32,136 nucleotides of DNA. It comes from Synechococcales cyanobacterium bin59.metabat.ball.084. GTDB lineage: Bacteria; Cyanobacteriota; Cyanobacteriia; Cyanobacteriales; Chamaesiphonaceae. Of the stretch, positions 16,549 to 21,017 are shown piece after piece. Under the pieces are notes generated by a model that saw only the letters and a list, made by a program, of their open reading frames with translations, was not told the DNA's origin and made no database searches. A program made the position numbers and the translations under genes. Position 1 is the stretch's first letter; each line of letters opens with the position of its first letter. The stretch spans positions 1-32,136 of the forward strand of contig JAAFHZ010000045.1 in the NCBI GenBank assembly GCA_013297675.1, written 5' to 3'.

Positions 16549-17868
16549 ATGAGGATTGTGAGTAGACCCATCGGAATCGATTTATTTGCTGGAGCTGGCG
16601 GCATGTCTCTGGGGTTTGAACAGGCTGGGTTTGACATTGCTGCTGCAATAGAGATCGATCCGATTCACTGCGCAACCCATGAATATAACTTCCCGCACAC
16701 CGCCACTATCTGCGCCAGCGTCATAGATTTGACTGGTCAAGAAATCCGCCGTCGATCGAACATCGGCAATCAAGATATCAACGTAGTTTTTGGGGGTGCG
16801 CCATGCCAAGGTTTTTCGCTGATGGGCAAAAGAGCTTTTGATGACCCCAGGAACCATCTGGTATTTCACTATGTGCGCATTGTCAAAGAGCTAAACCCCA
16901 AATACTGCGTATTTGAAAACGTCAAAGGCTTGACTCTGGGACAACATGCCCAGTTTTTAACCGAGTTGATCGAAGCTTTAAACGATGCTGGCTACAACAT
17001 ATTAACTCCATACCAAGTGCTAAATGCGGCTGATTATGGTGTGCCACAGGATCGCCGCCGCTTGTTTTTGGTTGGGGCAAGGAAAGGTTTGAAATTACCC
17101 AAATACCCAGAGGTAAATCCCAACAGAACCACCGTTTGGGAGGCGATCGGTGACTTACCTAACGCCGCTGATTTTGCGGCTCTCAATCATACCGGTGCAG
17201 TTCCGGCGCAATGGATAACCACTAGCTCTTATGGTAAAAGACTGCGCGGGTTAGAAGCTGACCCTCATAACTACGGCTATCAGCGCCAGTTTGATCCTAA
17301 TTTACTAACATGCAGTCCTCTTACTAAGCATACTAAGTTGTCTCAAGATCGATTTGCGGCCACTCTACAGGGTAAGACTGAGACAGTCAGCCGCTTTCGC
17401 AAATTAGAACCAGATGGACTTTGTAATACTCTTCGCGCAGGAACCGATAGTGCCAGAGGAGCACATACCTCACCCCGCCCGATTCACCCTCTTTTTCCTC
17501 GGGTAATCACGGTCAGAGAAGCGGCTAGATTGCATTCTTACCCCGACTGGTTCCGCCTTCATGCCACAAAATGGCATGGTTGTCGCCAAATTGGTAATAG
17601 CGTGCCGCCTCTGCTGGCTAGAGCAGTTGCCAGTGAAATCTTGAAAGCTCAAGGTATCAAGCCCACTAAGCCCCAAAAAATTTTGCTCCCAGGCCAGGAA
17701 AGTTTACTATCTCTCGATATGACCAGAGCCTCCAAATACTTTCAGGTGCCGCGAGATACCATCGCTCAGAGATCACCTAAAATTTCGGAGCCAGACATGA
17801 TGATTCTGACTTTGCCCAATAATGATGGTTTTGGTGATGCTTTAACGTCGCTGGTCGAAATTAGTTAA
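16549..17868 (+). CDS. orphan C5-cytosine DNA methyltransferase
   Basis: A 439-residue m5C methyltransferase with the conserved blocks in order: motif I GIDLFAGAGGMSLGFEQAGF (AdoMet), motif IV GGAPCQGFSLMGKRAFDDPR with catalytic Cys86, motif VI VFENVKG, motif VIII GVPQDRRRLFLVGAR, a target-recognition region (about 190-290), motif IX RVITVREAARLHSYPDWF and motif X GCRQIGNSVPPLLARAVA. A ~75-residue C-terminal extension follows. No restriction enzyme is adjacent, so it is an orphan. My recollection is that it resembles the cyanobacterial M.Ssp6803I/M.AvaVIII type, which methylates CGATCG, the core of HIP1; the abundance of CGATCG in this genome fits, but the specificity is inferred. Its stop overlaps by 4 bp the stop of the convergent NACHT gene. 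Confidence 0.92.
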   Translation: MRIVSRPIGIDLFAGAGGMSLGFEQAGFDIAAAIEIDPIHCATHEYNFPHTATICASVIDLTGQEIRRRSNIGNQDINVVFGGAPCQGFSLMGKRAFDDPRNHLVFHYVRIVKELNPKYCVFENVKGLTLGQHAQFLTELIEALNDAGYNILTPYQVLNAADYGVPQDRRRLFLVGARKGLKLPKYPEVNPNRTTVWEAIGDLPNAADFAALNHTGAVPAQWITTSSYGKRLRGLEADPHNYGYQRQFDPNLLTCSPLTKHTKLSQDRFAATLQGKTETVSRFRKLEPDGLCNTLRAGTDSARGAHTSPRPIHPLFPRVITVREAARLHSYPDWFRLHATKWHGCRQIGNSVPPLLARAVASEILKAQGIKPTKPQKILLPGQESLLSLDMTRASKYFQVPRDTIAQRSPKISEPDMMILTLPNNDGFGDALTSLVEIS

Positions 17869-19883
17869 TTTAGGGGCATTTTTGGAAGATTGATCGCCTT
17901 ACTTGAAGACATCTCTGCAAAATGTTCTAGCACCATTCGATGTACAAAAATATAGCCACCTCCAACTTTTTGAAGGAACAATTGCTCTGTAGCAGAATCT
18001 AAAAAACGAGCGTAGTTCCAAGGAGCATACTTGTTATAATATAGCATTATGCGAAGAACAAAATGTTGTAAGCAAGCATTTCCACCAAAAATCATTCCAA
18101 AAATTAATCCATTAAGTAACCCGAAAGTCAGGTCAGAATACGTACCAAAAATTGGCCTAGAAATGAGTCCAGAAATTATTCTGAAAATCAGAATCCCGAC
18201 GAATAGAATAGTTACTCCAATAATAGTGCTATTTTGAATAGAGCTAAAAATCCCTTGATTTGGTTGCTCTCTTTGCTGAATTTCAGAACCTCCAAACCCA
18301 TTAATTATCACAGAAATTATTCCAAAAAACAACCCGGAAGATATCCCGAAAACCAGTTCATTGTTTAGCCCTGAAAGCAGCCTGAAAATCAATCCAGAAA
18401 TTAGCCCCCCAGCTAGCCCAGTAAATAGACTGAAAAAGAAATTACTTCTGGCTTCTTGCCAAGACCACTTTAAAGTTTCAAAAGGTTGAATATCTGATAG
18501 AAATGATATGCATAGCCCGTTAATTAATCCAAGAACTGTCATGATTAATACCCCATCAACTAATCCAACACTCAGCCAATAAACTAGCCCACCAGATAGT
18601 ATGCCCGTCGCACCACAAGCAAAACCACTTCCCAGTCGATAGTAAATTTGTTGTTTATTCGTTGGCAGCCAACTGGATTGCAATCTCTCAATTAAAAATA
18701 TTGTTTGAGCTTTATCATTCATCTGCTGTGCCATCCAAATTAACCACATCTGAGCTTCTTCTTTGGAATATAGCTGTGTTGTTCTCCGCCGATCAAACAT
18801 TCGATCGACATAAGTTGTAAACAATCGTTTCCGATAATCTTCATCCATCTGGCTCGAAGCTAGCTGCTCCAGCGTGAAGTCTTGATAGGCTAAACTCATC
18901 ACACTCAACATTAATGGCGAAGTAGCTAATTCTTGTAAGATCTTATCCTGTAGCAAAACTGTTTTTAACGCGCTCAGTTGCTCCCCAGCTCGATCGAAGT
19001 ATTCATCAACCTGTTGAAGAGTCAATGGCTGAAGGCAAATAGCACTCCGTAACGTTAACCGGTCAGTCAACGCCTGATAATCTTGAATTCGGCAACAGAC
19101 CACAACCTCAGTAGTGCCATGGTTTTGCATAAATAGATTCAATGCCTGCACACAGTCATTGCGCTGATCTGCTTGAACTTCGTCTAACCCATCCAGCAAC
19201 AAAATCAGAGCCTCCGACCTTATCCAAGTTTCTCCAAGAGCCTTGGATACGTAATATTGTTCCTGTAGCTCCTGCACCAACCACTTTTCAATAGTTTGAA
19301 GCTTTCTTGCCCAAGAGGACAAATTAAACACTACCGGAATTTGCTGTCGTAAATCTGGCTTGGTACGAACAATTAAATCTTTGGCTAGTTTCAAGAGAGC
19401 AATAGTTTTACCAGATCCAGGCTCACCCAAAATCAACAGAGTGCGTCCCTCGCCCATCTGTTCAAAAACACCAGTAACGTAAGTACCATCAGGTAAAACT
19501 TGCCCAGGGATATCGGAAAATTCCGCAACACCGCTGAAAGGCTGCTTCACTAAATCCACACGTTCTTGCAGCCCCAGTTCAATTAGCGCTCTAGTGTGCA
19601 GAGAGTTCTTGAATACGCCTTCAACCCAAAATTTTTGCACCCTATCCAGTAACACTTGTCGCTGACGACACTCTTGCGGAGTGAGTGTCTGCATTACACT
19701 AATTGGCAACGGCATAGATGACGCAGGAAAATTTTCATAGATGTTCAGATTAGTAACATTGCCAAATGCTTTACCTCCCATCATGTGAGAAATTGCCTGA
19801 TTGTTACTACCCATAACATTTTGCTGAATCTGAAGACTTGGATCTAAATCAGAATTTAACGATGATGACATAAAATCTTCCAT
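17865..19883 (-). CDS. NACHT NTPase with N-terminal amyloid-like signalling motif and C-terminal polytopic membrane region
   Basis: A 672-residue NLR-like protein, the last of a three-gene row (10 bp after the PIN gene). Residues 17-50 hold a short motif with IQQNVMGSNNQAISHMMGG (19-37), which is nearly repeated in the first gene of the row (12 of 19 identical) and has a G-x-x-N-x-x-I core reminiscent of RHIM-like amyloid motifs. The NACHT domain has Walker A GEPGSGKT (153-160) and Walker B LILLLDGLDEV (226-236), plus the downstream CCRIQDY and SPLMLSVMSL elements. After about residue 410 there are no WD40/TPR/LRR sensor repeats; instead ~200 residues of glycine-spaced hydrophobic segments (GLVDGVLIMTVLGLINGL, GLAGGLISGLIF, FGLLNGLIFGMIFGG) predict several membrane helices, followed by a soluble tail (GGGYIFVHRMVLEHFAEM). 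An ATM at M5 could be the start instead (ATG at 19871). Role inferred: regulated switch for the neighbouring effector. Confidence 0.85.
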   Translation of the reverse strand: MEDFMSSSLNSDLDPSLQIQQNVMGSNNQAISHMMGGKAFGNVTNLNIYENFPASSMPLPISVMQTLTPQECRQRQVLLDRVQKFWVEGVFKNSLHTRALIELGLQERVDLVKQPFSGVAEFSDIPGQVLPDGTYVTGVFEQMGEGRTLLILGEPGSGKTIALLKLAKDLIVRTKPDLRQQIPVVFNLSSWARKLQTIEKWLVQELQEQYYVSKALGETWIRSEALILLLDGLDEVQADQRNDCVQALNLFMQNHGTTEVVVCCRIQDYQALTDRLTLRSAICLQPLTLQQVDEYFDRAGEQLSALKTVLLQDKILQELATSPLMLSVMSLAYQDFTLEQLASSQMDEDYRKRLFTTYVDRMFDRRRTTQLYSKEEAQMWLIWMAQQMNDKAQTIFLIERLQSSWLPTNKQQIYYRLGSGFACGATGILSGGLVYWLSVGLVDGVLIMTVLGLINGLCISFLSDIQPFETLKWSWQEARSNFFFSLFTGLAGGLISGLIFRLLSGLNNELVFGISSGLFFGIISVIINGFGGSEIQQREQPNQGIFSSIQNSTIIGVTILFVGILIFRIISGLISRPIFGTYSDLTFGLLNGLIFGMIFGGNACLQHFVLRIMLYYNKYAPWNYARFLDSATEQLFLQKVGGGYIFVHRMVLEHFAEMSSSKAINLPKMPLN

Positions 19884-19893
19884 ATCTAATCAA

Positions 19894-20373
19894 TTAAAGA
19901 TTAATATCTTGCCATCGAGCAGCAATGCAAAATCGAGACAAGTGTTTCAAATTAGTAGTAGCAACAATAACTTGCTGACCAGGATACTCATTTTTTAAAA
20001 TTTGGTACTGAGCAGAGATAATGATATCAACATCAATATTTTTATCATCTCTGGTAGTCAGTCCTTCGTTAGTAGCTTTTGCCCAAAGATTAGCAGCTAA
20101 GTCCAAACATTCTGTACTAATGGGCAAGAACTCCAAAAATCCATCAATTTTCAACAAATTCAGCAAATTGACACCCGGAGACAGCTTGCCAGATCGAATA
20201 AAAGAGCTAATCAATCCTCTTCTCACCTCATAATCACAAATATCAGAAGTAACAAAGCGAACACCTCTAATTGATAAATTCGCAAACCACCTGTCACATT
20301 GTTGACATTCTTCAAACGAAGTATTGGAATTAGAAATCAATCCCAGAATATTACTATCAAGGAAAACAATCAT
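19894..20373 (-). CDS. PIN-domain nuclease (VapC-like)
   Basis: A 159-residue PIN-fold protein. The acidic metal-binding residues are in place: Asp6 in IVFLDSNILG, Glu49 in ICDYEVRRGL, Asp114 and Asp116 in NIDVDIIISAQ, and the polar residue Asn141 in IVATTNLKHLSRF. PIN toxins are Mg2+-dependent RNases that cleave tRNA, rRNA or mRNA; their partner antitoxin is usually encoded just upstream. Here the upstream gene, 8 bp away, is the helical effector candidate with a charged C-terminal tail, not a recognisable VapB, and the NACHT gene starts 10 bp downstream. The placement says it belongs to the three-gene module; whether it is a toxin held by that tail or a nuclease arm of the NACHT system cannot be decided from sequence. 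It contains no CGATCG. Confidence 0.85.
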   Translation of the reverse strand: MIVFLDSNILGLISNSNTSFEECQQCDRWFANLSIRGVRFVTSDICDYEVRRGLISSFIRSGKLSPGVNLLNLLKIDGFLEFLPISTECLDLAANLWAKATNEGLTTRDDKNIDVDIIISAQYQILKNEYPGQQVIVATTNLKHLSRFCIAARWQDINL

Positions 20374-20381
20374 TTCTAAAT

Positions 20382-21017
20382 CTATCTCCTGGATTCGGCA
20401 AGAGATTTATATAACTCTTCAAACTGTTCATCACTTTCAACTTTTTCTGCTGGCGTTAAACTATCCCATAGTTGACGCTTGCTATCCACAAACCTCTCAA
20501 AAGCTGCAACTCTACGAGCTGTTTCTTCAGGAGAAAGTCTTGTCTGGTCATCATACTCAATGGGATCTGTAAGAGGATTTTCCACTGGGGCAGCTTTTCG
20601 ATCAATTACCATCATCACATTACCACCTGTTAAATGACCAATTATCTGATTTTGGCTCCCTGTCACATTTTGCACAATTTTGCTGTTAAGAGTGCCATCA
20701 CCCTCTTGAAAAATTTCAGCGATCAACTTTAACAACTCTGCATCCTGATCCAGCAACTTTTTTAATTGTAACCTTAAAACAATCTGCAAATCTTCATCAT
20801 TAGGATTGTTTGCCACATCCACAGCAGCTTCTCTAGCAGCTTCCTTAGCCTCGACTTTTGGACTTAGCTTTTCCCAAATTGCTTGGGCTTTTTTAAAAGC
20901 CGTTTCACCGAGCCTACCTGAAGCCGATTCGGTAGCTTTTTCCATCGCCTTTCCACCCAATTTCATCAAAAAAGGAAGAAACGGACTGATAAAAGCGGTG
21001 AGATTAACAACATCCAT
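20382..21017 (-). CDS. candidate Bell-like membrane effector with amyloid-like motif and antitoxin-like tail
   Basis: A 211-residue protein, first of the minus-strand module. Start: the ATG at 21017 has GGAGG 8 nt upstream; a GTG (21050) and an ATG (21041) further out lack this. Residues 1-103 are helical and begin with a hydrophobic stretch, AFISPFLPFLMKLGGKAMEK, then AFKKAQAIWEKLSPKVEAK and a segment rich in paired acidic and leucine residues. This arrangement matches my knowledge of the bacterial 'Bell' domain, proposed as an analogue of the HeLo/MLKL four-helix pore formers. Residues 114-132, IVQNVTGSQNQIIGHLTGG, repeat the NACHT N-terminal motif. The last ~50 residues (from LSPEETARRVAAFERFV to the end) form an acidic-basic amphipathic tail resembling antitoxin C-termini, and the PIN gene follows after 8 bp. 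Function is inferred; no enzyme motif is present. Confidence 0.7.
   Translation of the reverse strand: MDVVNLTAFISPFLPFLMKLGGKAMEKATESASGRLGETAFKKAQAIWEKLSPKVEAKEAAREAAVDVANNPNDEDLQIVLRLQLKKLLDQDAELLKLIAEIFQEGDGTLNSKIVQNVTGSQNQIIGHLTGGNVMMVIDRKAAPVENPLTDPIEYDDQTRLSPEETARRVAAFERFVDSKRQLWDSLTPAEKVESDEQFEELYKSLAESRR

Follow-up and report, generated by a model that had tools for sequence, protein, structure and literature searches.

A candidate antitoxin tail on the BELL-BASS effector of a cyanobacterial PIN-NACHT operon

The present work examines a three-gene operon in the window, that is, the whole 32,136-nucleotide stretch of contig JAAFHZ010000045.1 from Synechococcales cyanobacterium bin59.metabat.ball.084, in which an immune-type effector appears to be fused to an antitoxin. 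The genes are arranged in tandem on the minus strand, in the order effector, PIN nuclease and NACHT NTPase, with gaps of 8 bp and 10 bp. The C-terminal tail of the effector is probably the antitoxin of the PIN protein, as suggested by gene order, by the co-divergence of tails and toxins and by selection. For the circuit as a whole the chances are judged to be even: a PIN toxin-antitoxin pair would be lodged inside a BELL-BASS/BASS-NACHT amyloid-signalling operon, the effector would double as antitoxin, and the toxin would be freed when NACHT is triggered. Both kinds of pair, BELL-BASS/NLR and PIN toxin-antitoxin, are known; what appears to be new is their fusion, with the toxin gene placed between effector and receptor. 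The elements of the operon are the following.

21017-20382 (20385..21017 as the listed part), minus strand: effector/antitoxin fusion gene, 211 residues from an ATG
20703..21017, minus strand: BELL-like domain, effector residues about 1-105, with a hydrophobic N-terminus
20613..20678, minus strand: BASS-like amyloid motif of the effector, residues about 114-135
20385..20537, minus strand: antitoxin-like tail, effector residues 161-211
20373-19894, minus strand: PIN-domain nuclease (putative toxin), 159 residues, with acidic residues D6, E49, D114 and D116
19883-17865, minus strand: NACHT NTPase, 672 residues (PF05729 in Pfam, E=1.6e-10)
19773..19832, minus strand: BASS-like motif of the NACHT protein, residues about 18-37, matching the effector motif

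An upstream GTG provides an alternative start for the effector, which would lengthen it to 222 residues, and the C-terminal half of the NACHT protein is hydrophobic as read from its sequence. A sequence-only reading of the window had described the PIN gene as lying 8 bp behind a gene that is not a recognisable VapB, the last residues of which form a charged amphipathic tail that might serve as antitoxin. The 8-bp gap is as described. In Pfam, all matches to the effector and its tail stay below the cut-offs of the models (these weak matches include Unstab_antitox, E=0.23, for the tail), and nothing is listed for the effector in NCBIfam or PADLOC, so that the gene is indeed no recognisable VapB. 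The strongly charged tail has two helices, at residues 163-185 and 189-210, in a low-confidence model; its amphipathic character was not upheld, the hydrophobic moment being no higher than that of its own shuffles (0.283 versus a mean of 0.239, and 0.080 versus 0.186).

The tail occurs elsewhere as part of ordinary-looking toxin-antitoxin pairs. When 60 related genomes were searched for the 51-residue tail, four (the window's own included) had matches, at six places, five of which lie outside the window. At three of these five (L002, L003 and L005) the tail is the C-terminus of a protein of 145-150 residues, the remainder of which is unrelated to BELL, and this protein ends 7, 8 and 1 bp, respectively, before a PIN gene whose product is 69% identical to the window PIN; these three PIN proteins are its closest homologues. 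Stand-alone homologues of the tail, which the earlier reading had proposed to seek next to PIN genes, are thus found 1-8 bp upstream of such genes and not beside unrelated genes only. The stand-alone tails, from related genomes, share 67-71% identity with that of the window, which is therefore no chance sequence, and effector residues 145-211 can be aligned to the L003 protein and residues 161-211 to that of L005. The N-terminal part of the stand-alone antitoxins was labelled Uma2-like by eye. The same kind of tail protein stands at a contig end (L004/L040), and a PIN gene of the same genome stands at the end of a different contig (L156); the two look like one tail-PIN pair split between contigs. 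Neither BELL nor a homologue of the window NACHT was detected in the 3.6-8.5 kb around the three pairs (L039, L041 and L042; best scores 40 and 47), where a Walker-A pattern occurs in one of six large open reading frames (ORFs), and the genomes that carry these pairs have no match to the window NACHT at E<=1e-20.

The window PIN protein matches the Pfam PIN model weakly (E=0.08), and 15 of the 33 aligned members of its family match that model, with a best value of 1.3e-6. D6, E49, D114 and D116 are invariant in 33/33 members, in agreement with the earlier statement that all acidic residues are present, and on these sequence criteria the family is assigned to PIN. The only NCBIfam matches among the 33 members are two weak ones to YneK, and no solved structure in the PDB matches the family by sequence at E<=0.01. 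With the 33-row alignment as query the family was detected in 190/388 order genomes, and with the single sequence in 55 of 386 genomes of the phylum; no PIN relative appeared among the viral contigs and phages scanned, and plasmids yielded four matches, annotated as PIN, nuclease or hypothetical. This PIN toxin-antitoxin family (L008-L056 and L120-L222) is widespread and has no NCBIfam model of its own.

A survey of the better matches to the family (78 regions, mostly avoiding places with internal stops; L020, L137 and L031, with truncated 5' ends, were left out and identical PIN sequences counted once) revealed a consistent gene order. An ORF of at least 40 residues ends between -12 and +40 bp from the PIN start in 124 of 127 distinct PIN genes with an intact start, and the three others involve a contig edge, a broken ORF and an ORF at +41. 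The positional control gave 124/126 at the true site versus 3-18 of 122-126 when the site was shifted by 150-600 bp, and 7/49 when it was shifted by 750 bp. The N-terminal parts of these antitoxins fall into 22 sequence clusters among 117 proteins, with BELL only in the window; the N-termini of the antitoxins of this family are swappable. At L127 (genome G493, contig C22) the N-terminal part resembles leucine-rich repeats, a label given by eye, and at L222 (genome G544, contig C79) an antitoxin-like tail ends a 259-residue protein with an N-terminal part that looks by eye like a fragment of a HerA-type ATPase.

Tails and toxins of this wider family diverge together. Over 89 non-redundant pairs, with the tail taken as the last ~50 antitoxin residues, the distances between tails correlate with those between PIN proteins (r=0.62; maximum of 500 permutations 0.09), and the correlation is 0.37 among close PIN pairs only. 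In the 64 antitoxins with a long N-terminal part, PIN distances follow the tail (r=0.72) more closely than the N-terminal part (r=0.48). As for selection on the window genes, the proportion of synonymous differences (pS) from relatives is 0.66-0.82, near saturation, while the corresponding values for non-synonymous differences (pN) are 0.18-0.22 (tail), 0.19-0.20 (PIN) and 0.17 (BELL). The tail of the window is under purifying selection, as are PIN and BELL. The stand-alone tails form two groups that share 67-69% identity, and the window tail is no further from them than that; this level of identity, together with the low pN, indicates that the tail has not decayed. An AGGAG stretch within the last effector codons (..TCCAGGAGATAG) could be the ribosome-binding site of the PIN gene, and the conserved ESRR ending of the effector may therefore be kept partly for it. 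A scan for promoters and terminators returned chance level only.

The N-terminal part of the effector was compared with BELL proteins of other genomes. Residues 1-135 align to a stand-alone BELL-BASS protein (L088, score 473) of 146-148 residues from a genome of the same family, which is 69% identical to the effector over the first 104 residues; 24 bp after it there is a 783-residue ORF with a Walker-A pattern and, judged by eye, a related N-terminal motif. The BASS-like motif of the effector aligns to the N-terminus of the NACHT protein with a local score of 62, while the best of 2000 shuffles reached 46. The pore-former-like domain and amyloid motif proposed in the earlier reading are hence supported, in sequence terms, as a BELL-like domain and a BASS-like motif common to the NACHT protein. 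The motif is internal, being followed by 76 residues that end in the tail, and not C-terminal as in the BELL proteins of published signalosomes. With the whole effector as query, 54 of the 388 order genomes gave matches, and among the matches listed none passes effector residue 172 except the window and five tail-only places (G003, G004 and G010).

Altogether 38 distinct BELL domains were examined, of which the 34 from other genomes represent the better matches and not all BELL places. All but one of these 34 proteins end 32-50 residues after BELL, among them L093, which has an extra N-terminal part; the exception, L096, continues for 260 further residues. A Walker-A ORF lies at most 300 bp downstream in 22/34 loci, a pattern that gives chance matches (it also matched one BELL ORF, L092); seven loci have no ORF of at least 90 residues starting within 300 bp, and one offers 236 bp of downstream DNA only. 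With their short C-terminal stretch and nearby Walker-A ORF, these loci agree with the BELL proteins with C-terminal BASS beside NLR genes that are described in the parts of PMC7889193 consulted here. No relative of the window PIN was found in any of the 34 other BELL loci, the best ORF scoring 48 versus 820 for the window PIN itself. At L096 (genome G432, contig C152) BELL-BASS is fused to a caspase/CHAT-like domain, and a NACHT gene with a BASS-like N-terminus lies nearby on the opposite strand: the same receptor type with another effector. The CHAT-like label was assigned by eye both here and at L093. Homologues of the window NACHT at E<=1e-20 were present in 84/148 relatives, and many among those listed start past residue 50, i.e. 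beyond BASS. A sequence search of the PDB with BELL gave weak matches only (best E=0.012, mostly designed helical chains), a scan of contigs with the effector had a BELL of Nostoc carneum as its sole match, and one BELL match was obtained on a plasmid, beside a gene annotated fxsT.

These elements can be arranged into a model. BELL-BASS would have replaced the N-terminus of the PIN's antitoxin, and at rest the tail would bind and silence the PIN nuclease. When triggered, the NACHT receptor would oligomerise and its N-terminal BASS would template that of the fusion protein, which would then polymerise while BELL moved to the membrane. Whether by polymerising or by being turned over, the fusion would deprive PIN of its antitoxin, and PIN could then cut RNA. 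The steps subsequent to silencing would follow the published amyloid-signalling model by analogy. Gene order and co-divergence favour the antitoxin tail that the sequence-only reading had envisaged, and the NACHT-triggered release of an RNase, its further proposal, is a step that we infer.

Several results weigh against this model or against its antitoxin component. The window tail scores 6.7 bits with a profile of 120 tails of the wider family, for which the best shuffle reaches 15.7 (not significant), and 6.4 bits with a profile of the 49 tails with a KLY-type ending, a value attained by 7/1000 shuffles (best 10.2); it also stops short of the wider family's final ~8 residues. Single-sequence structure models, with pLDDT values of 43 for the effector and 44 for PIN, were too poor to use and yield no structural support for tail-PIN binding, and Foldseek with the PIN model gave no significant match, VapC 3zvk standing at rank 7 with E=2.6. 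The full circuit was met at one locus only, among the 388 order genomes searched with the effector and the 386 phylum genomes searched with a BELL profile, in which only the best candidates per genome were scored, and the only same-genus genome among those searched has no match to tail, effector, PIN or NACHT. On the wider-family comparison, the tail of the close homologue L003 scores 16.5 on the 49-tail profile, higher than any shuffle of the window tail. Profile-profile matching of the window tail to the wider tails gives a probability of 28% over the full length and in the same register, and pairwise comparison with the 120 tails gives a mean z of 1.07, as compared to 0.28 for a control segment from BELL; four of the 120 beat all 300 shuffles against the window tail, by 1-2 points only. 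Since neither profile is significant, it is gene order and the close tails that connect the window tail with the wider family.

Among the other explanations, the one that survives best accepts that the tail neutralises PIN and regards BELL-BASS as a borrowed oligomerisation domain, a swapped N-terminus like others, with the neighbouring NACHT having no control over the toxin. The 22 clusters of N-terminal parts among the 117 antitoxins, including the leucine-rich-repeat-like one, speak for such borrowing, as do two other BELL fusions of the same genome, for which the surrounding 8-9.5 kb contain no match to NACHT. Against it, the window retains a BASS motif that matches the one in NACHT, and only 8 and 10 bp separate its three genes; this account is considered unlikely. 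Less likely again is an addiction lock, whereby the tail makes the effector indispensable, and loss of the effector, or an attack on it, frees PIN, the module then being a guard of the NLR operon and not an executioner. Type II toxin-antitoxin pairs are well known for addiction, and the evidence from gene order and selection fits this account as well as the circuit; nothing specific speaks against it, except that it has no need for the BASS match, which is nevertheless present. The tail might instead be a tether that never inhibits and brings an active PIN into the amyloid assembly as a recruited co-effector. Tail-PIN co-divergence would be expected in that case too, but the tails of relatives sit in small proteins lacking BELL, in the usual toxin-antitoxin layout; a tether is held to be quite improbable. 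That the tail is a relic and PIN unregulated or dead can hardly be so, for in spite of a decayed 53-residue tail copy without PIN in G003 (L006), tail and PIN are under purifying selection and the catalytic acids are intact.

The proposed circuit, with effector doubling as antitoxin, resembles several known systems without coinciding with any of them. It shares with the two-gene BELL-BASS/NLR amyloid signalosomes, as presented in the portions of PMC7889193 and PMC8086366 used here, a small helical domain with a hydrophobic N-terminus, a BASS-like motif, and a NACHT protein with a matching N-terminal motif; it differs from them in that BASS is internal, an antitoxin-like tail follows, and a PIN gene separates the two genes. 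The word "antitoxin" is absent from the main text of both papers. As in VapBC-type type II systems, the PIN toxin is encoded directly downstream of a gene whose product would pair with it through its C-terminus, whereas the window antitoxin matches no VapB model and has an NLR effector domain as its N-terminus. NTPase-centred conflict systems also recruit toxin-antitoxin parts: the sections of PMC7159879 and PMC8195603 drawn upon report VMAP ternary systems that have taken up DUF397 toxin genes, and proteins in which PIN shares one polypeptide with NACHT or with EAD10-TPR-GreA/B. In those systems the toxin comes without an antitoxin, or PIN resides in the same protein, while in the window the effector carries the antitoxin-like tail and a separate gene encodes the toxin. 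Within the same sections, the antitoxin-less recruitment of DUF397 by VMAP ternary systems and the joining of PIN to NACHT (PMC7159879) are the nearest printed ideas. A survey of titles and abstract openings in the open-access literature, with subscription papers and preprints outside its range, brought up, among the entries listed, no report of an NLR effector fused to an antitoxin.

The genome of the window codes for four BELL domains at E<=1e-4, the window's included. At L098:3975-8207 (contig C151), BELL, a BASS-like motif, nSTAND1 and periplasmic-binding-like domains form one protein of 1131 residues, and the next gene codes for a BASS-like N-terminus and a CHAT domain. At L091:3557-5067 (contig C46), BELL is joined to HTH_66 (Pfam, 5.4e-6) and DUF433 (1.7e-11), and an overlapping PIN_10 gene (8.6e-22) comes next, a pair that presumably resembles VapBC45. 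As in the window, BELL is here the N-terminus of an antitoxin-like protein followed by a PIN-like toxin; the pair differs from it in its antitoxin and toxin families, its incomplete BASS and the absence of a nearby NACHT match. At L102:3689-4841 (contig C54), a small conserved protein is joined to a partial BELL directly after the gene of a PARP-like ADP-ribosyltransferase (PF00644, 6e-4, below the Pfam cut-off). This small protein is present in 17 genomes (148 relatives searched, the own genome included); in relatives it stands alone, mostly after such a transferase, and at seven loci outside the own genome a transferase-like ORF directly upstream is full-length in four, partial in one and lacking in two. 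BASS is incomplete at L102 too, with no NACHT match around it, so that only the window has the full putative circuit. Of these four BELL domains, three are joined to partners of toxins, versus 0/34 elsewhere (Fisher p=0.0005), a post hoc comparison in which the partners at the 34 other loci had no Pfam scan. It is possible, though doubtful, that BELL was joined in independent events to the antitoxin-like partners of three different toxins (PIN, PIN_10 with its DUF433 partner, and the PARP-like ADP-ribosyltransferase), and that toxin-antitoxin modules are an effector class wired to BELL amyloid signalling, with an NLR unlocking the toxin by polymerising the antitoxin. Beyond the operon, a C-5 cytosine DNA methylase gene (window 16549-17868; PF00145, 1e-67) is convergent with the NACHT gene, which it overlaps by 4 bp.

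The arrangement lends itself directly to experiment, comprising three small genes, a clear catalytic site and a separable tail. If the circuit is as proposed, a single alarm could set off two killing mechanisms in an infected cell. It would offer a concrete answer to how immune sensing triggers a chromosomal toxin-antitoxin pair, and it would show what a bacterial amyloid signal does downstream.
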